The position numbers and the translations under genes are program-made. The notes under the pieces are model-generated. The model saw nothing but the letters and a program-made list of their open reading frames with translations. It had not been told where the DNA came from and made no database searches. Source: Streptomyces sp. NRRL S-244 (GTDB taxonomy: Bacteria > Actinomycetota > Actinomycetes > Streptomycetales > Streptomycetaceae). Taken from it: a stretch of DNA of 43,894 bases. Each line of letters starts with the position of its first letter. The first letter of the stretch is position 1. The DNA is taken from contig NZ_JOCX01000041.1 in assembly GCF_000717915.1 (NCBI RefSeq), positions 1 through 43,894 on the forward strand, read 5' to 3'. This document shows, piece after piece, positions 18,752 to 40,126 of the stretch.

Positions 18752-18782
18752 TTGGGATGTTGTCGGTGTCAGCGCCTAGTCT
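18752..18782 (+). promoter_or_regulatory. promoter candidate of the SMC operon (leaderless)
   Basis: TTGGGA (18752-18757), 19 nt, TAGTCT (18777-18782). The -10 ends 6 nt before the GTG at 18789, and no Shine-Dalgarno sequence is present, so transcript start and GTG probably coincide. Confidence 0.5.
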
Positions 18783-18788
18783 TTGTCC

Positions 18789-20294
18789 GTGACTCTCCCT
18801 GCCCCGGCGAAGACCCTTCCGTCCCCGGCGCCGGGCCCGGCCGCCGACGAGGGCCTGGCCCGGCGGCTGCGCGCGCTCGCCTGCACCGCCCCGCTGCACG
18901 ACCTCGACGTACGCAAGGCCAATCTCGCCGGCGAGTACGGGATCTACGCGATGGCGGAGGTCGCGCTCTCCGCGATCGACCTGGTCACGCTCAACATGGA
19001 CTTCGACACCGGCGCGGACCACGAGCAGATAGTGGCCCGGCTGCTGCCGCGCGTCGCCGCGCAGGCACCGCACCGCCCCGCGGCCGAGCACGAGCGGGTG
19101 GCCCGCTGGGTCCTGGAGAACCTGATCAACGTCGGCAGCGTCGACCGGGGCTTCCGCGCGATCTACGGCACGTTCGGCCCGGACGGGGTGTACGTCCGCC
19201 GGGACTACGACTTCAAGCTGATCGAAGAGGTCCCCGGCTACGGCGGGGCGGTCTACCTCCGTACGACGGACGAGGCCGTCAACGTGCTGGTCGGCGCCCT
19301 CGACACGGACGTCACCAGCGCGCAGATCGCGGCCGAGGTGAAGCTGGAGGTCCTGATCAGCCGGGGCCGGCTGGCCGACGCCCAGCTCGCCGCCGAGCAG
19401 GCCCGGTACCGCACGGTGCAGTACGCGGAGACCCTGCGCCGCACGCTGGACGCGACCCGGCGCAACGTGCGGGCGGTGGACTGGCTCCAGTCGGTGCCGG
19501 ACATGATCGAGGAGGCCCTCGACCACGTGGCCGACCGCTACCGGCACGAGAACGCGATCCTGACGAACATCCGCCGGGCGCGCGACGAGGCCGAGGAGCC
19601 CGACAACAAGCGGCGCGCAGCCGAGCTCGTCGACATCGTCAAGGACTGCATCCGCCGCCACACCCAGCTCCAGTCGAGGCTGCTGGACGCGGGCCCGCTG
19701 TTCCGGGCCGAGCAGGACCGGCAGGCCTTCGCGGCCCCGGCGCCGCGCTCCGGGATCGACCTGTACGGGCAGCTCGTGGCGCCGGTGCTGCCGCTGCCGC
19801 TGGCGCAGGCCTCCCGGGTCACGGACGCCTTCTTCGCGTCGGCGGTCGGGCTGCGGACCCCGGTCTCGGTGCGCGTCGCCGACCTGGTCGAGATACTGCT
19901 GACGCCGCCGGTGGAGCGCGAGCACCTGGGCGTGGAGATGCCGGAGCCGGACCTCATCGCGACGCCGGACGACAGCCGGTTCAGCGAGGAGCAGCTCGCC
20001 GCCGCGATGGAGCTCCTGGACCTGCCGCACGACGCCCCGCGCCGGCTCTCGGGCCTGCTGGCGCAGGCCCGGCGCGCCGACCCGGACCTGCCGTACCTGG
20101 TGGCCCTGCTGGCCGTCCACGCGGCGAGCCCGGCCGTCGGCACGGCGTACCGCCAGGGCGAGGAGCGGCTGCTCTTCGCCGTGGACGACGGCACGCAGCT
20201 CGACGACCCCGAGTTCGGCGGCGCGGACCTGATCGTCGGCACGGCCCTCCTCGACGCGGCCGCGATGGCCGCGGACCGCACGGAGGCGGCATGA
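18789..20294 (+). CDS. kleisin-like (MukF/MksF/JetA-position) protein of SMC operon
   Basis: The protein is 501 aa from the GTG; a TTG two codons earlier is possible. The N-terminus (30-140) looks like a winged-helix unit (ANLAGEYGIYAMAEVALSAID). The middle (180-330) is long helices (ADAQLAAEQARYRTVQYAET, RRNVRAVDWLQSVPDMIEEA, NKRRAAELVDIVKDCI). The C-terminus ends in a second compact domain with DDGTQLDDPEFGGADLIVG. This is the plan of the kleisin subunits MukF/MksF/JetA, although I see no DUF3375 signature. It is the first gene of a four-gene coupled operon and overlaps the next by ATGA. The subunit role is inferred from architecture and gene order. Confidence 0.6.
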   Translation: MTLPAPAKTLPSPAPGPAADEGLARRLRALACTAPLHDLDVRKANLAGEYGIYAMAEVALSAIDLVTLNMDFDTGADHEQIVARLLPRVAAQAPHRPAAEHERVARWVLENLINVGSVDRGFRAIYGTFGPDGVYVRRDYDFKLIEEVPGYGGAVYLRTTDEAVNVLVGALDTDVTSAQIAAEVKLEVLISRGRLADAQLAAEQARYRTVQYAETLRRTLDATRRNVRAVDWLQSVPDMIEEALDHVADRYRHENAILTNIRRARDEAEEPDNKRRAAELVDIVKDCIRRHTQLQSRLLDAGPLFRAEQDRQAFAAPAPRSGIDLYGQLVAPVLPLPLAQASRVTDAFFASAVGLRTPVSVRVADLVEILLTPPVEREHLGVEMPEPDLIATPDDSRFSEEQLAAAMELLDLPHDAPRRLSGLLAQARRADPDLPYLVALLAVHAASPAVGTAYRQGEERLLFAVDDGTQLDDPEFGGADLIVGTALLDAAAMAADRTEAA

Positions 20295-20713
20295 CCACCC
20301 CGAGTCCGCCCGGCCCGCCCCCCGCGCGCACCACCGCCCGGACCGGGAGCCACCGCGCCGCCCGACCGCAAGGCGGTACGACCGCCCTGGCCGGGGGCCA
20401 CCGGGCCGCCTGGCCGCAAGTCGGTACCGCCGTCCTGGCCGCAGGCCACCGGGCCGCCTGGTCGGAAGGCCGTACCACCGCCCTGGCCGGGGGCCACCGG
20501 GCCGCCTGGCCGCAAGTCGGTACCGCCGTCCTGGCCGCAGGCCACCGGGCCGCCTGGCCGGAGGGCCGTACCGCCGTCCTGGGCGGTGGCCGCCGGGCCG
20601 ACGGGGCCGGGCACCCGGGGGCGGCCCCGCCCGTCGCCCGGGCGGCCGGGGCACAGAGCCCGCCCGCCATCGCACACCACGAACACCGCACCGCCGAGGA
20701 GACCCACCCGTGA
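20291..20713 (+). CDS. small repeat protein coupled within SMC operon
   Basis: The frame is 140 aa. Its ATG overlaps the upstream TGA (ATGA) and its TGA overlaps the next GTG (GTGA), which is good evidence that it is translated. Residues 12-107 are six 16-residue repeats of the type GTAVLAAGHRAAWPE, encoded by six 48-bp units (20324-20611). The rest is Pro/Ala-rich and probably disordered. It resembles no known condensin subunit. It may be a linker or spacer protein, or a low-complexity frame kept open only to maintain translational coupling between its neighbours. Confidence 0.6.
   Translation: MTTPSPPGPPPARTTARTGSHRAARPQGGTTALAGGHRAAWPQVGTAVLAAGHRAAWSEGRTTALAGGHRAAWPQVGTAVLAAGHRAAWPEGRTAVLGGGRRADGAGHPGAAPPVARAAGAQSPPAIAHHEHRTAEETHP
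20324..20611 (+). repeat. 48-bp tandem repeat, 6 units
   Basis: Six in-frame 48-bp units. Units 2+3 and 4+5 are nearly identical as 96-bp pairs (codons GRTTALAGGHRAAWPQ then VGTAVLAAGHRAAW), while the first and last units are degenerate. Confidence 0.9.
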
Positions 20714-21648
20714 GCGACCACCACGCCGAGCACCCCGCGTGGAGCGAGCGGCATCCCGCGTGGAGCGAGGCCGACGCGCCGTCGGCCCCCGTCGCGCCCG
20801 CCCCCGCGGGGCCCGCCGCGGCAGCCGCCGTCACCCCCGCCGACGCCGCGGACGCGGCCCGGCTCGTCGCCTTCGGGCTCCAGCCCAAGCTGCTCCCGGC
20901 CCGCGACGCCGAGTACGCCGAACTGCTGCGCCGCTACCGCGAGGACCCGGCCTTCGGCCGCCTCGCCGACGCCGTCGCCACCGGCCTCGGCCTCGTCGTC
21001 CTGGAGGTGTCCCCGCGCGCCGGCATGGCCGTCGCCGCCGGCGAGGACTCCGTCTTCGCCGTCCGGATGGGCGACTACGCCCGCCGTACCACCGCCGATT
21101 CCGCCGACCGGTTCCTGCACGGCCTCGCCCACCTCGCCGTCGCGGCCCTGGCCTTCCCCCGCCCCGAGGACCTCGCCGACGACGGCTACATCGGCCGCGT
21201 CACCGTCAACGGGGTCGACGCCTTCGTCCGCCAGACCTGCCGCCGCCTGGAGGAGCGCGCCGAGGAGCTCGGCGAGAACACCGACCCGGCCACCGACGCC
21301 CCCGGCCTCGAAGCCGCCTGGCGCGTCTACGCCCGCCGCAGTGCGACGGGCGCCACCAAGGACGCCCGCCGCCTGGCCGGCTCCACCACCGGCATCGTGG
21401 GCAAGGCCGCCGCCTTCCTCACCGACTCCGGGTTCCTGCAGCGCACCGGCGACGACGCCGGCGGTACGTACCGCACCACCCCCCGCTATCAGCTCCAGGT
21501 CCGCGACATGGCGGGCAGCGCGGCCATGGCCGAGCTCCTGGAACTCGGCGTGGTCCCCGTCAGCGACGGCTCCGCCAGCCTCCTGCCGCCGCCCGAGGGC
21601 GACGACCTGGAGCTCGCCGCCGACGCCGGCCTGCCCTTCCACGCCTAG
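20710..21648 (+). CDS. kite-like (MukE/MksE/JetB-position) protein of SMC operon
   Basis: The protein is 312 aa from the GTG inside the GTGA overlap. The first 45 residues are low-complexity (HPAWSERHPAWSEADAP, then Pro/Ala). The rest is mixed helix/strand with winged-helix-like pieces: LLPARDAEYAELLRRYREDP, GLGLVVLEVSPRAGMAVAAG, YARRTTADSADRFLHGLAHL, then KAAAFLTDSGFLQRTGDDAG and TYRTTPRYQLQVRDMAG, which reads as a wing followed by a strand. Size and position fit the MukE/MksE/JetB (kite) subunit. No DUF4194 signature is recognised. A hairpin separates it from the SMC gene. Confidence 0.6.
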   Translation: MSDHHAEHPAWSERHPAWSEADAPSAPVAPAPAGPAAAAAVTPADAADAARLVAFGLQPKLLPARDAEYAELLRRYREDPAFGRLADAVATGLGLVVLEVSPRAGMAVAAGEDSVFAVRMGDYARRTTADSADRFLHGLAHLAVAALAFPRPEDLADDGYIGRVTVNGVDAFVRQTCRRLEERAEELGENTDPATDAPGLEAAWRVYARRSATGATKDARRLAGSTTGIVGKAAAFLTDSGFLQRTGDDAGGTYRTTPRYQLQVRDMAGSAAMAELLELGVVPVSDGSASLLPPPEGDDLELAADAGLPFHA

Positions 21649-21649
21649 A

Positions 21650-21702
21650 GGGGGTCTTGTGGATCAGGCCGGGCTCGCGGCGGCCGGATCCACACGACCC
21701 CC
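21650..21702 (+). terminator. intra-operon hairpin (attenuator candidate)
   Basis: Bases 21650-21665 pair with 21687-21702 (16 bp, one mismatch) around a 21-nt G/C loop. The hairpin begins right after the stop of the kite-like gene and lies 52 nt before the SMC ATG. It could reduce read-through or stabilise the upstream mRNA. Confidence 0.75.
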
Positions 21703-21754
21703 CTAGCCACCTGCACCCGCCCTCCGTACCGAGAATTCACGAGAGTCCGCCGCC

Positions 21755-24700
21755 ATGTACGAGCTGTCCCGGATCCGCCTCTACTCCATCGGGCCCGCCG
21801 GTGCGCGCTACGCCGACACCGTGCTCGACCTGCGCGGAGTCGGTGAGCCGGTGCCCCACCCGGCGCCCGCCCAGGCGGAGTTCTTCGAGGACGAGCCCAC
21901 CGGCCCGCCGCGCCGCCCGGCGCCCGCCGGCGTGCTCTTCCTGGAGAACGGCGGCGGCAAGTCCGTCCTGCTCAAGCTGATCTTCTCGGTGATGCTCCCC
22001 GGCCACCGCAACACCCTCGGCGGCGCCAGCTCCGGTGTCCTGCGCAAGTTTCTGCTCGCCGACGACTGCGGCCACGTGGCCCTGGAGTGGCAGCACACCC
22101 AGACCGGCGAGTGCGTGGTCGTCGGCAAGGTCAGCGAATGGCGCGGCCGCCAGGTCTCCAACGACCCGCGCAAGTTCGCCGAGGCCTGGTACTCCTTCCG
22201 CCCCGGCCCGGGCCTGAGCCTGGACAACCTCCCCGTCGCCGAGGCCACCGCCGTCCGCCCGCCCGTCGAAGGCGCCTCCGGCGCCCGGGGCCGGCGCCGC
22301 ACGATGAAGGGCTTCCGCGACGCCCTCACCGAGGCCGGCAAGGCGTACCCGCACCTGGAGGTGTACTTCGAGGAGATCCACGACCGCTGGAACGAGCACC
22401 TCACCGAGCTCGGCCTCGACCCCGAACTCTTCCGCTACCAGCGCGAGATGAACGCCGACGAGGGCGAGGCCGCCGGCCTCTTCGCGGTCAAGAAGGACTC
22501 CGACTTCACGGACCTGCTGCTGCGCGCGGTCACCGACACCCGCGACACCGACGGCCTCGCCGACCTGGTCCACGGCTTCGGCAACAAGCTCGGCCGCCGC
22601 GCCGAGCTGATGGCCGAGCGGGACTTCACGGCCGGCTCGGTGGACCTCCTGACCAAGATCGTCGAGGCCGCCGAGACCCGCTCCCGGCTCCGCGACGTCC
22701 ACGCGGGCGCCGAGCGCCGTACGCGCACCCTCGCCCGGCGGCTGTCCGCCCGCGCCACCGAGGAGCGCGGCCGCGCCGCCGACCTCGCACAGCGGGTCAC
22801 CGGAGCCGCCCACGGGGTCACCTCCGCCGAGTCCGCGCGCTCCCGCAGCGCCGCCGTCTCCGCCGAACTCGCCTACCGGCACGCCTCGCTGGCCCTGACC
22901 GTCGCCGACAAGGCCGCCGCCGCCCAGCGCCGCGAGCTCCTCGAAGCCCGCACCCTGCACTCCGCGTGGCAGGCCGCCGAGATCGTGCTGCGCCACCGCG
23001 CCGCCGCCGACCGCTCCGCCCGGGTCGCCGCCGCGATCCTGGAGGCCGAGCGGGACGCCGCCCCGGCGCTCGCCGCCCGCGCCACGGCCGCCGCCGCGCT
23101 CGTACGGGCCCTGCACACGGCCGCCGAGGGCGGGGAGCGGGTCGCCAACGAGGAGGAGGAGCGGTCCGCCGCCCTCCAGGAGGCGGGCGAGGCGGCCCAC
23201 CGCGACGCCACCGCCGCCGCCACGGCGGCCCAGCGGGCCCGCAGCGAGGCCGAACACCTGCGGGCCCGGCTCGCCGAGGTCCAGCAGGAGACCGCCGAGG
23301 CCGTACGGGCCGGCTGGCTCGACGACTCGGCGCCCGACGCCGACCCGGCGCGGGCGGCCCTGGCCGCCTCCGACGCGGAGAAGACCGCCGTTGCCGCCTG
23401 GGACGAGTCCCGCGAGGCCGCCCGCACCACCGCCGACGCCGCCCGCGAGGCCGCCGCCGCGGAGTCCCGCGCCGAACTCACCGCCGCCCGTGCGGCGGAC
23501 GCCGCCGACGCGGCCGAGGCCGCGCACGACGCCGAGCACCGCGCGGCCGCCTCCCTGGCCGACTCCCCCCGCCTGGCGGAGCTCCTGGGCCTCCCGCCGG
23601 TCCCCGAAACCTTCCTCCCGCACCCGCGCACGGGCACCCCCGCCGAATCCGGCACGCCCACCGGCCCGAAGGGAGCCGCCGGCTCCGCCGCCCCGGCCGA
23701 ACCAGGCGGCGGGCTCACGGTCGCGGACCTCGACCGGAACGCCGACGAGCTGCGCGAGATGCTCACCCGCGGAGTCGGGGCGGCCGAGCGGCAGCTGTTC
23801 GAGCTGCGCACCGCCGCCGCCGACGACGCCCGCATCCTCGGCGCGCTCGGCGACGGCGGCCTGCTGCCGCCCGGCCCCGACGTCCTCGCCACCGTCGAGT
23901 ACCTCGGCGAACACGGCATCCCGGCCCTGCCCGGCTGGCGCTACCTCGCCCAGTCCGTGGACCCGGCCGACCACGCCGCCGTCCTCGCGGCCCGCCCCGA
24001 GCTCGTCGACGGCGTCGTCATCACCGACCCCGACACCCACGCCCGGGCCCGCGAGGTCCTCTCCGGCGCGGCCCTGCTGCCCCGCTCCACCGTCGCCGTC
24101 GGCACGGCCGCCGCCCTGCTGGCGCCGGTGCCGCCCGCCGACCATTCCGACGCCGGGGTGTTCCTCGTACCGCCGAACCCGGCCATGCACGACGAGCACG
24201 CCGCCGACGAGGAGCGCCAGGCGCTGCGCACCCGCGCCACCGCCCGCGACACCGAGATCCGGGAACTGGCCGCCCGCCTCGCCGGGGACCGCGAACTCGC
24301 CGCCCGCCTCGCCTCCTGGCGCACCGGCTGCCCGCCGGGCCGTCTCGCCGAGCTCGCGCAGCAGGCCGAGGCCGCCCGCGCGTTCGCGGAGGAGGCCGAC
24401 GCCGAGCTCGCGGAGGCCCGTACCGTACGGGCCGAGGCCGACGAGGCCGCCGCCGACGCCGCCCGCGTCCGCGACGAGCGCCAGGACGCCGCCCAGCGGG
24501 CCCGCCGCGCCGCCGACGCCCTGGCCGGGCTCGCCTTCCGGCTGCGCGAACGCGCCGGCTGGCAGGCCAAGGTCCGTGAACTCGCCGACGACGCCGCCGA
24601 ATCCGAGGCCCGCGCCGAGGTCTGCCTGGACCGGGCCCGCGCCGCGGACGAGGACCGCCGCGCCGCCCAGCGCGCCGCCGACGACGCCCGCCGCACCGCC

Positions 24701-26434
24701 CGCGCGCTGCGCGCCGAGCGTGCCGAGATCGCCGGCGCCCCCGAGGCCCTGCCCGAGGACGACGGGACCGCCAAGGCGCCGCTGCCCGACCTCCGCGAGG
24801 CCTACCGGGCCGCCAATCGGCTGTACGAGAAGGTCGGCGTCGGCGCCGACCTGCGCGCCGAACAGGCGCGCGCCGAGAGCGACGAGAGCGCCGCCCTCGC
24901 CGAACTCGACCGGCTCACCAACAAGGTCCGCACCCGCGCCGCCCAGCTCCTCGAAGGCACCGACGGCGCCGACGGGCCCTCCCGGCAGGCGGCCGCCGCC
25001 CGCGCCGAGTCCCTCGTGCAGATGCTGGAGACCCGCGCGCAGGTCGCCAGCGAGCAGCTCGGCCGGCTGCGCGGCGAGGCCGAACGGCACGCCCCCACCG
25101 AGGGCGAGGCCCACACCGACCTGCCCGAGGAGCTGATCCCCGGCGACGTCGAACAGGCCCAGGCCCTCCTGCGCACCGCCACCGCCCAGCTGGCCGCGCA
25201 CACCGCGGCCGTCGAGACCGCCCGGGCCGCCCACGCCGACCTGCTGCGCGCCCACCGCGCTGCCGAGGACGGCGCCGGGGGCTTCGACGAGACCGCCGCG
25301 ATGCTGCGGGACCTGCTGCGCGACCACACCCACCAGGACGACGAGCAGGAGCCGGCCGCCCACCCGGGCACGCTGGAGGAGGCCCGGCAGTCCGCCGCCG
25401 AAGCCCGCCGCTCCCTGCGCGGCTGCGCGGCCGACCTCTCGGCCGCCGAGTCGGCGGTGCGCGAGGCGAGCGACATCCTGGTCCGCCACGCCAACGCCAA
25501 CCGCTACGAGCAGGTACGCACCCCCGCGCGCCAGCAGATCCGCGAACTGCCCGCCTCCGCCCTGCCCGAGCACGCCGCGGCCTGGGCAGCGGCCTTCGCC
25601 CCCCGGCTGCGCGTCCTCACCGACGAACTGGCCCAGCTGGAGCGCAACCGCGACAGCATCGTCGACCGGCTGCGCGGACTGGTGGAGTCCGCCCTGGCCA
25701 CCCTGCGCTCCGCCCAGCGGCTCTCCCAGCTCCCCGAGGGCCTGGGGGAGTGGTCGGGCCAGGAGTTCCTGCGCATCCGCTTCGAGGAGCCGGACCAGGC
25801 CACCCTCACGGAGCGCCTCGGCGAGGTCATCGACGAGGCGACCCGCACGGCCGTGAAGAAGAACAGCAGCGCCTCGTTCGGCGAGGGCCGCCGCGACGGC
25901 ATGTCCCTGCTGCTCCGCGGAGTGCAGGCGGCCCTGGAGCCCAAGGGCATCTCGGTCGAGATCCTGAAGCCGGACGCGGTGCTGCGCGCCGAGCGCGTGC
26001 CGGTCGGCCAGATGGGCGACGTGTTCTCCGGAGGCCAGCTGCTGACCGCCGCGATCGCGCTGTACTGCACGATGGCGGCGCTGCGCAGCAACGACCGAGG
26101 CCGCGACAAGCACCGCCACGCGGGCACGCTGTTCCTCGACAACCCGATCGGGCGCGCGAACGCCACGTACCTGCTGGAACTCCAGCGGGCCGTCTCGGAC
26201 GCGCTCGGCGTCCAGCTGCTCTACACCACCGGCCTGTTCGACACCACGGCCCTCGCCGAGTTCCCGCTGGTCATCCGGCTGCGCAACGACGCGGACCTGC
26301 GGGCGGGCCTGAAGTACATCAGCGTCGAGGAGCACCTGCGTCCCGGCCTGCCCCAGCAGTCCCCGGAGGAGGAGACCATCCACGGAGAGATCACGGCGAC
26401 CCGCATGTTCCGCCGCTCCGCGACCGTCTCCTGA
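21755..26434 (+). CDS. SMC/MukB-like ATPase of unrecognised condensin-type system
   Basis: The protein is 1559 aa. Walker A lies at 63-70 (LENGGGKS, first Gly replaced by Leu), and a MukB-like stretch PGHRNTLGG follows at 82-90. Long Ala/Glu/Arg heptad coiled coils span about 320-620 and 815-1330, separated by a globular domain (about 640-815, with GIPALPGWRYLAQSV and ELVDGVVITDPDTHARA) in the place of a hinge. The ABC signature SGGQ lies at 1425-1428. Walker B reads TLFLDNPIGRANA (D1462, then Asn where SMC proteins have Glu), and the D-loop and switch follow (LLYTTGLFDTTAL). The head-coil-hinge-coil-head plan is certain; the family is not one I can name. It is the last gene of the operon. 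Confidence 0.82.
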   Translation: MYELSRIRLYSIGPAGARYADTVLDLRGVGEPVPHPAPAQAEFFEDEPTGPPRRPAPAGVLFLENGGGKSVLLKLIFSVMLPGHRNTLGGASSGVLRKFLLADDCGHVALEWQHTQTGECVVVGKVSEWRGRQVSNDPRKFAEAWYSFRPGPGLSLDNLPVAEATAVRPPVEGASGARGRRRTMKGFRDALTEAGKAYPHLEVYFEEIHDRWNEHLTELGLDPELFRYQREMNADEGEAAGLFAVKKDSDFTDLLLRAVTDTRDTDGLADLVHGFGNKLGRRAELMAERDFTAGSVDLLTKIVEAAETRSRLRDVHAGAERRTRTLARRLSARATEERGRAADLAQRVTGAAHGVTSAESARSRSAAVSAELAYRHASLALTVADKAAAAQRRELLEARTLHSAWQAAEIVLRHRAAADRSARVAAAILEAERDAAPALAARATAAAALVRALHTAAEGGERVANEEEERSAALQEAGEAAHRDATAAATAAQRARSEAEHLRARLAEVQQETAEAVRAGWLDDSAPDADPARAALAASDAEKTAVAAWDESREAARTTADAAREAAAAESRAELTAARAADAADAAEAAHDAEHRAAASLADSPRLAELLGLPPVPETFLPHPRTGTPAESGTPTGPKGAAGSAAPAEPGGGLTVADLDRNADELREMLTRGVGAAERQLFELRTAAADDARILGALGDGGLLPPGPDVLATVEYLGEHGIPALPGWRYLAQSVDPADHAAVLAARPELVDGVVITDPDTHARAREVLSGAALLPRSTVAVGTAAALLAPVPPADHSDAGVFLVPPNPAMHDEHAADEERQALRTRATARDTEIRELAARLAGDRELAARLASWRTGCPPGRLAELAQQAEAARAFAEEADAELAEARTVRAEADEAAADAARVRDERQDAAQRARRAADALAGLAFRLRERAGWQAKVRELADDAAESEARAEVCLDRARAADEDRRAAQRAADDARRTARALRAERAEIAGAPEALPEDDGTAKAPLPDLREAYRAANRLYEKVGVGADLRAEQARAESDESAALAELDRLTNKVRTRAAQLLEGTDGADGPSRQAAAARAESLVQMLETRAQVASEQLGRLRGEAERHAPTEGEAHTDLPEELIPGDVEQAQALLRTATAQLAAHTAAVETARAAHADLLRAHRAAEDGAGGFDETAAMLRDLLRDHTHQDDEQEPAAHPGTLEEARQSAAEARRSLRGCAADLSAAESAVREASDILVRHANANRYEQVRTPARQQIRELPASALPEHAAAWAAAFAPRLRVLTDELAQLERNRDSIVDRLRGLVESALATLRSAQRLSQLPEGLGEWSGQEFLRIRFEEPDQATLTERLGEVIDEATRTAVKKNSSASFGEGRRDGMSLLLRGVQAALEPKGISVEILKPDAVLRAERVPVGQMGDVFSGGQLLTAAIALYCTMAALRSNDRGRDKHRHAGTLFLDNPIGRANATYLLELQRAVSDALGVQLLYTTGLFDTTALAEFPLVIRLRNDADLRAGLKYISVEEHLRPGLPQQSPEEETIHGEITATRMFRRSATVS

Positions 26435-40063: not shown

Positions 40064-40126
40064 GGTCACTGTCAGTGGCGACGGTTACCGTGAGTGAGCA
40101 ATCGAATGCGCCACTCAGGGGGAGCC

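Follow-up and report, generated by a model that had tools for sequence, protein, structure and literature searches.

The jetABC operon of Streptomyces sp. NRRL S-244

This study analyzed a 43,894-nt stretch of contig NZ_JOCX01000041.1 from Streptomyces sp. NRRL S-244 (the whole stretch is hereafter called the window), which carries a condensin-like operon, jetABC, encoding a structural maintenance of chromosomes (SMC) complex. The assembly comprises 7.1 Mb in 73 contigs at a completeness of 99.95%, and the canonical housekeeping SMC is also encoded in this genome, with both SMC_N halves in one 1297-amino acid (aa) frame on contig C39. An earlier note made from the sequence alone (the original prediction) had described a four-gene operon. 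The coordinates of its four frames, the ATGA and GTGA overlaps between frames 1 and 2 and frames 2 and 3, and the 106-nt hairpin gap before jetC were all found again in the sequence (Table 1). The operon is real, but it comprises three genes, jetA, jetB, and jetC, rather than four.

The second frame is an array of a 48-bp repeat in 5.6 copies (20330-20600). A tblastn search of 30 loci gave no match to it, and the gap between jetA and jetB, measured with start codons picked by script, ranged from -41 to 622 nt across 30 fetched core loci. Core loci denote the near-universal copies of the operon, in which the Wadjet nuclease JetD was not found, and accessory loci denote extra, patchily distributed type III copies. 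These three results ruled out gene 2 as a fourth subunit, and it is probably not a functional component. In related strains, other repeats occupy the jetA-jetB spacer in place of the 48-bp repeat of the window.

Table 1. Features of the jetABC locus, in window coordinates
Feature	Position	Strand	Evidence or remark
RecA-NDp (PafBC-type) promoter TTGTCRGTG-N8-TAnnnT	18760..18782	+	exact match; leaderless-type arrangement
jetA, kleisin, Wadjet type III JetA3, 501 aa	18789..20294	+	PADLOC PDLC00567, fold, genome surveys
48-bp repeat spacer readable as a 140-aa open reading frame (gene 2), strain-specific	20291..20713	+	repeat analysis, tblastn, gap variation
jetB, kite subunit, 312 aa, variable low-complexity N-terminus	20710..21648	+	predicted fold, homologues
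jetB-jetC gap, 106 nt, strain-specific hairpin	21649..21754	+	folding, relatives
jetC, SMC ATPase, Wadjet type III JetC3, 1559 aa	21755..26434	+	PADLOC PDLC00588, motifs

Identity of the subunits and selection on the operon

Pfam and NCBIfam gave no match above the cut-off for any of the four operon frames. The PADLOC models identified gene 1 as JetA3 (E 1.1e-187) and gene 4 as JetC3 (1390 bits). The claim that the operon bears no recognised Wadjet signatures was therefore overturned. The predicted folds were compared with solved structures by using Foldseek. The closest chains were MukF kleisins for gene 1 and JetB/MukE kites for gene 3, with no match at E 0.001 and with low template modeling (TM) scores in both cases. 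In the structure comparison scores, CorA nearly equaled MukF for gene 1 and LmrR, a winged helix-turn-helix regulator, nearly equaled JetB for gene 3; the fold evidence is thus support and not proof. A sequence search of solved chains returned nothing for gene 1 or JetC and one chance row for gene 3, and a profile search returned designed barrels and chance rows, with no Muk or Jet chain. Taken with the JetA3 and JetC3 models, the kleisin and kite folds support the proposed kleisin-kite-SMC complex of the Muk/Jet plan.

The SMC-type ATPase ascribed to gene 4 was likewise confirmed by its motifs: Walker A LENGGGKS, signature FSGGQ, and Walker B LFLDNP. Of the 31 core rows, 27 shared this Walker A and four had no letters at that place; Walker B was identical in 30 of the 31, and the FSGG signature was present in nearly all JetC rows. 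The JetC frame exceeded 1500 aa in 28 of the 31 core loci and was short in three (L076, L077, and L141), where assembly error is possible. SMC ATPases usually have a catalytic glutamate in Walker B. An asparagine at this position (LDNP) was found in the window JetC and in the type III loci L009, L082-L089, L134, and L135, and L010 has MDNP instead. The idea that loss of the glutamate marks a dead core ATPase was rejected, as JetD-bearing type III relatives share LDNP. Among the other loci, the JetC frames of L130 and L154 (both Frankia sp. QA3) and L132 span 1054-1179 aa, compared with approximately 1480-1690 aa in most loci; either their coiled coil is far shorter or the frame is interrupted.

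The ratio of nonsynonymous to synonymous substitution rates (dN/dS) in six core pairs was 0.065-0.16 for jetA, 0.08-0.27 for jetB, and 0.12-0.33 for jetC. By this comparison of sequences, the core jetABC genes are under purifying selection.

No JetD found beside the core operon

The genome of NRRL S-244 yielded no match to JetD_C (PF09983) and none in a search with an alignment of nine type III JetD sequences. PF09983 was rejected as the sole detector of JetD because it misses the type III JetD of one genome (G007), and the type III alignment was used instead; PADLOC named JetD3 for all four of its members tested. Over 75 loci, a JetD profile gave 19 matches, namely 15 in accessory loci and four in loci fetched by their JetD (L165, L166, L167, and L169). 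Each of the 10 accessory loci chosen by JetA alone and extending past jetC carried JetD (L009, L010, L082-L085, L134, L135, L175, and L176); the other five had been chosen by their JetD (L086-L089 and L162). The profile matched none of the 32 core loci, every one of which extends at least 1.2 kb beyond jetC, and none of 23 Frankia loci, 15 of which extend at least that far. Some Frankia rows in the counts of JetD, spacing, and promoters represent the same genome fetched twice. No match was obtained in L136, the sequence of which ends before any JetD. The frames after jetC vary among loci and were screened for a single nuclease, JetD, with the profile. The original prediction had stated that no nuclease is present, and for JetD this held in the window, in the genome, and beside the core operons.

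The distance from the jetA stop codon to a fixed JetB residue was 55-80 nt in all 12 JetD-bearing loci scored, 95-781 nt in 30 core rows, and 59-341 nt in 16 Frankia rows; L136 (65 nt) and the fragment L141 were left out of these counts. According to PMC10586767, the JetB N-terminus is contacted by JetD in type I systems, and the relaxed spacing therefore fits a loss of JetD. The relaxation amounts to one or two events at the level of clades and not to a large number of independent observations.

Distribution across genomes

The survey of operon conservation that had been proposed for this locus was run and revealed near-universal presence. Within the genus, 147 of 150 genomes gave a JetA match (among those of good quality, 146 of 147, with a weaker match in G121, E 8e-70). 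Within the family, 148 of 150 did so, covering 17 of 17 genera; the match in G158, the only sampled genome of its genus, was weak (E 4e-17). A sample of the class comprised 296 genomes in 114 genera; 43 genomes from 5 genera had a JetA match at E<=1e-10, and all belonged to Streptomycetaceae or Frankiaceae. Within Frankiaceae, 19 of 35 genomes had a match. Among the 120 best of 1114 JetA homologues and the 120 best of 1414 JetB homologues, all those with a name came from Streptomyces.

More than one JetA match was observed in 13 of the 150 genomes of the genus. A type III JetD was strongly matched in 11 of the 150 and weakly in two more, and all 11 genomes with a strong match were among the 13 with an extra JetA. 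JetD thus tracks the extra, patchy copies of the operon and not the core copy. Any JetD_C was found in 18 of the 150. In Frankiaceae, JetD was matched in 6 of 35 genomes, and in four of them the match was strong and spanned the full length; G432, which is among these four, had no JetA match at 1e-10. PMC10482375 reports Wadjet in 42% of Actinobacteria, with more than 43% of the Streptomyces systems lying in the terminal 10% of the chromosome on either side; the word JetD does not appear in that paper.

Descent of the JetD-less operons

The first JetA tree had 58 rows; its core rows formed one clade (31 rows, support 99/98) and the Frankia rows another (14 rows, 100/99), and the two joined at 97/94 among JetD-bearing rows. 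Adding L162, a JetD-bearing Frankiaceae locus with a JetA 62% identical to that of the window, left the joint clade open. Holding the JetD-less rows together was not rejected by the approximately unbiased (AU) test, either for JetA (p 0.58) or for the joined JetA, JetB, and JetC heads (p 0.097). The free joined tree grouped Frankia with JetD-bearing rows with a support of 97 in the Shimodaira-Hasegawa-like approximate likelihood ratio test (SH-aLRT), which favors two losses. A single JetD loss common to both families was not adopted, as the first JetA tree supports it, the tree with L162 leaves it open, and the joined tree favors two. All trees were rooted at midpoints, for which long branches are a caveat. 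The tree with L162 was built without L135, L010, L089, and five near-copies from Frankia, and the joined tree without eleven close core rows, L135, L010, L089, and L136. In the JetA trees, L136 was counted among the JetD-bearing rows.

We also compared a JetD tree of 17 rows with the JetA tree for the 15 of these loci that it holds. The groups L009 with L175, L084 with L085, and L086-L088 were common to both, and both held L082, L083, L134, and L176 together with a slightly different inner order. The sharing of these main groups suggests that JetD was co-inherited and then lost. On these trees, one or two losses of JetD from a JetD-bearing type III ancestor are the most probable account.

A RecA-NDp promoter upstream of jetA

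The sequence TTGTCGGTG-N8-TAGTCT ends 6 nt upstream of the GTG start codon of jetA and is a perfect match to the RecA-NDp promoter consensus, which PMC5656591 gives as tTGTCRgtg-8 nt-TannnT and assigns to genes whose induction by damage requires neither LexA nor RecA. PafBC works through this promoter, which extends to other Actinobacteria (PMC8223512); Streptomyces encode PafBC homologues (PMC9380542), and in S. coelicolor the motif lies upstream of recA and of the UV-inducible macrodomain gene SCO6735 (PMC5087735). At no more than one mismatch, 0.03 matches were expected in the window and two were seen. The second, with one mismatch, lies at 40069-40091 (+) and is followed after 2 nt by a frame of 327 aa at 40094, for which Pfam gave no match at E<=1e-5.

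Genome-wide, 20 exact sites were found, compared with 0 for the reversed pattern. This number in a Streptomyces genome is at odds with a remark on S. venezuelae in PMC9380542, which is taken up in the Discussion. The frames downstream of the 20 sites were chosen by script, and 16 were run against Pfam, with jetA, L181, L182, and L183 outside this set. A Pfam family was assigned to 15 of the 16. These included RecA, UvrC, a DnaX-type clamp loader, and a uracil-DNA-glycosylase-family protein, along with macro-domain, HD-domain, WGR-domain, and SNF2-type DUF3670 proteins; seven further named frames had no clear tie to repair. Some of the 20 sites precede genes whose function is not known.

Upstream of core jetA genes, the promoter was present at a score of at least 11/12 in 17 of 32 loci and of at least 10/12 in 24 of 32, compared with 0.53% and 0.73%, respectively, of 3000 random stretches. 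The GTC was invariant, and an ATG or GTG followed TAnnnT by 5-8 nt, in all 30 core rows scored; the 31st row (L139) lacked TAnnnT in the stretch taken and was left unscored. The nine motif bases carried a mean of 1.26 bits of information, compared with 0.58 bits for the 40-nt upstream flank.

Genomic neighborhood and the jetB-jetC hairpin

A conservon-type set (NIT kinase, DUF742, and ATP_bind_1), LamB/YcsF, and a phosphoenolpyruvate-utilizing enzyme, by inference of the phosphotransferase system enzyme I type, are located nearby in the window. Neither rRNA nor tRNA was found in the window. The setting described earlier thus holds for its conservon and phosphotransferase components, with LamB/YcsF confirmed nearby, and not for rRNA; its assignment to the core chromosome was right. 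Of 30 fetched core operons, 16 have the NIT kinase gene nearby on the downstream side, and 5 have LamB/YcsF on the upstream side, as far as the fetched stretch extends.

The hairpin in the jetB-jetC gap (21649-21706) has a predicted folding energy of -45.6 kcal/mol (z -6.7). It was not found in L062, the nearest relative fetched, the JetA of which is 98% identical to that of the window, and the hairpin was therefore rejected as a conserved regulator. One partial copy at 80% identity was observed elsewhere in the genome (G000:C3:326777-326831). The hairpin is perhaps a small dispersed palindromic element.

Discussion

This study computed the identities of the subunits, the distribution of JetD, the conservation and descent of the operon, and the match of its promoter. 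Together they point to a descendant of a type III Wadjet that lacks JetD, is fixed in Streptomycetaceae, and serves as a damage-inducible, nuclease-free condensin, a reading to which we give about an even chance. A system of defense may thereby have been put to the care of the host chromosome after damage. The original prediction, which had rightly listed a housekeeping role as one option, had missed three points: that nearly all members of the family carry the operon, that it descends from type III systems with JetD, and that it has a RecA-NDp promoter.

The course of events and action that we infer would be as follows. An actinobacterial type III Wadjet would have lost JetD, with JetABC becoming fixed in Streptomycetaceae and a second JetD-less line arising in Frankiaceae. 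The Streptomycetaceae operon would be transcribed from a RecA-independent DNA-damage promoter: damage would produce single-stranded DNA, and PafBC would turn the operon on. JetC would hydrolyze ATP, and JetABC would load on the cell's own DNA and extrude or clamp loops, with no cutting of DNA without JetD. JetABC probably translocates DNA in the manner of Wadjet. The likely result would be that damaged or under-replicated chromosomes are compacted or tethered in the multigenomic hyphae, beside the housekeeping SMC. More tentatively, and with slightly less than even confidence, we propose that this second, damage-inducible condensin, captured from plasmid defense and placed in a PafBC regulon with recA and uvrC, folds or tethers broken linear chromosomes and thereby does in bacteria what Smc5/6 does elsewhere, as a functional counterpart. 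A second capture of this kind may have taken place in Frankiaceae.

Several observations weigh against this reading. No Foldseek match of the gene 1 or gene 3 model reached E 0.001, and their TM-scores were low. The asparagine in place of the usual Walker B glutamate, found also in JetD-bearing relatives, means that ATP hydrolysis is not assured, and two JetD-bearing pairs gave dN/dS values (0.13-0.30) similar to those of the core. According to PMC9380542, an initial search suggested that the PafBC motif of M. smegmatis is not conserved in S. venezuelae. The promoter scored below 10/12 in 8 of the 32 core loci, and the free positions inside the motif carried 0.99 bits, with some bases just upstream also conserved. 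None of 20 Frankia upstream regions reached 10/12, and neither did L162; the promoter therefore does not define the JetD-less state. Moreover, 7 of 15 accessory operons (14 with JetD plus L136) had the promoter at 11/12 or better, and damage control may thus predate domestication in type III Wadjets. The carriers were L009, L086-L089, L136, and L175, of which L136 ends before JetD. By their upstream sequences, the accessory type III Wadjets of Actinobacteria are suggested to be a damage-induced plasmid defense.

The sharing of this promoter type with accessory operons of the same genus, together with the clear Wadjet descent, also suits a non-cutting defense, in which JetABC would extrude small circular or phage DNA and silence or sequester it, as proposed for Smc5/6; compaction without cutting is the Smc5/6 model of a review (PMC10586767). 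This explanation is unlikely, although it deserves serious consideration: the core operon is near-universal and of high identity, unlike the patchy extra copies (13 of 150 genomes), and plasmid suppression in B. subtilis required all four Jet subunits according to the same review. Were the nuclease instead supplied in trans, the system would be a functionally complete Wadjet, and JetD does occur elsewhere in some genomes, as the 11 strong type III matches and the 18 matches to any JetD_C indicate. However, both JetD searches of NRRL S-244 and those of most operon-bearing genomes were empty, and no common set of frames follows jetC across the loci; we consider a trans nuclease very improbable.

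Streptomycetaceae and Frankiaceae are both sporulating mycelial groups. The restriction of JetA to these two families among the 296 genomes of the class sample, as well as its retention in nearly all sampled Streptomycetaceae, would accord with a general or developmental condensin for arm alignment or spore DNA packing, for which damage control would be incidental. This role is rather improbable, as the operon has a damage-type promoter and, with JetA in 5 of 114 genera, other mycelial sporulators seem to be without it. The remaining explanation, a decaying Wadjet remnant that has lost both nuclease and use, would account for the missing JetD, the freely drifting JetB N-terminus and spacer, and the short JetC frames in 3 of 31 core loci if these are not assembly errors. 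It is the least probable, being hard to reconcile with dN/dS values well below 1, with conserved ATPase motifs and promoter, and with JetA in all but one of the good-quality genomes of the genus, only G121 being weak.

The preferred reading, a damage-inducible condensin of Wadjet descent, was also set against known systems. The operon resembles type III Wadjet (JetABCD) in its strong JetA3 and JetC3 matches, its A-B-C gene order, and a promoter type present in some accessory loci. It differs in that no JetD was found, the core copy is not a patchy gene, and the JetB N-terminus and spacer are long and variable. JetD is a defining feature of Wadjet, and the operon was therefore not filed as one; it combines genes for a kleisin, a kite, and an SMC protein with no nuclease gene detected, which is the composition of the nuclease-free Muk/Mks type. 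The nearest precedent is MksBEF of Pseudomonas aeruginosa, a nuclease-free Muk/Jet-like condensin. That system, compared here by description, belongs to another group, whereas the present operon has type III sequences, an actinobacterial host, and a damage-type promoter. MukBEF shares the kleisin-kite-SMC order, and MukE and MukF chains top the Foldseek lists, but no Muk or Jet chain was matched by sequence for gene 1, gene 3, or JetC. MksBEFG of Corynebacterium glutamicum is similarly an actinobacterial Jet-type second condensin beside Smc; unlike the present operon, it is of type I and has the nuclease MksG. It acts in plasmid control, and no effect on chromosome organization was seen (PMC10123090). 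According to PMC10586767, MukBEF and MksBEF may stem from defense systems, with the origin not resolved. New here are the subtype, the near-universal presence in a family, the JetD-bearing copies side by side, and the damage promoter. Among the open-licence titles listed by our literature searches, none dealt with such a system.

The JetD-bearing and JetD-less forms coexist in one genus, side by side in 11 of 150 genomes, and the effect of nuclease loss on an SMC complex is therefore directly testable. A term search of two studies of the Streptomyces chromosome (PMC8410768 and PMC13121528) gave no mention of Wadjet; a conserved second condensin could thus alter the reading of Hi-C maps and of smc mutants. 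If the preferred reading is true, SMC complexes would be tied to the RecA-independent damage response.

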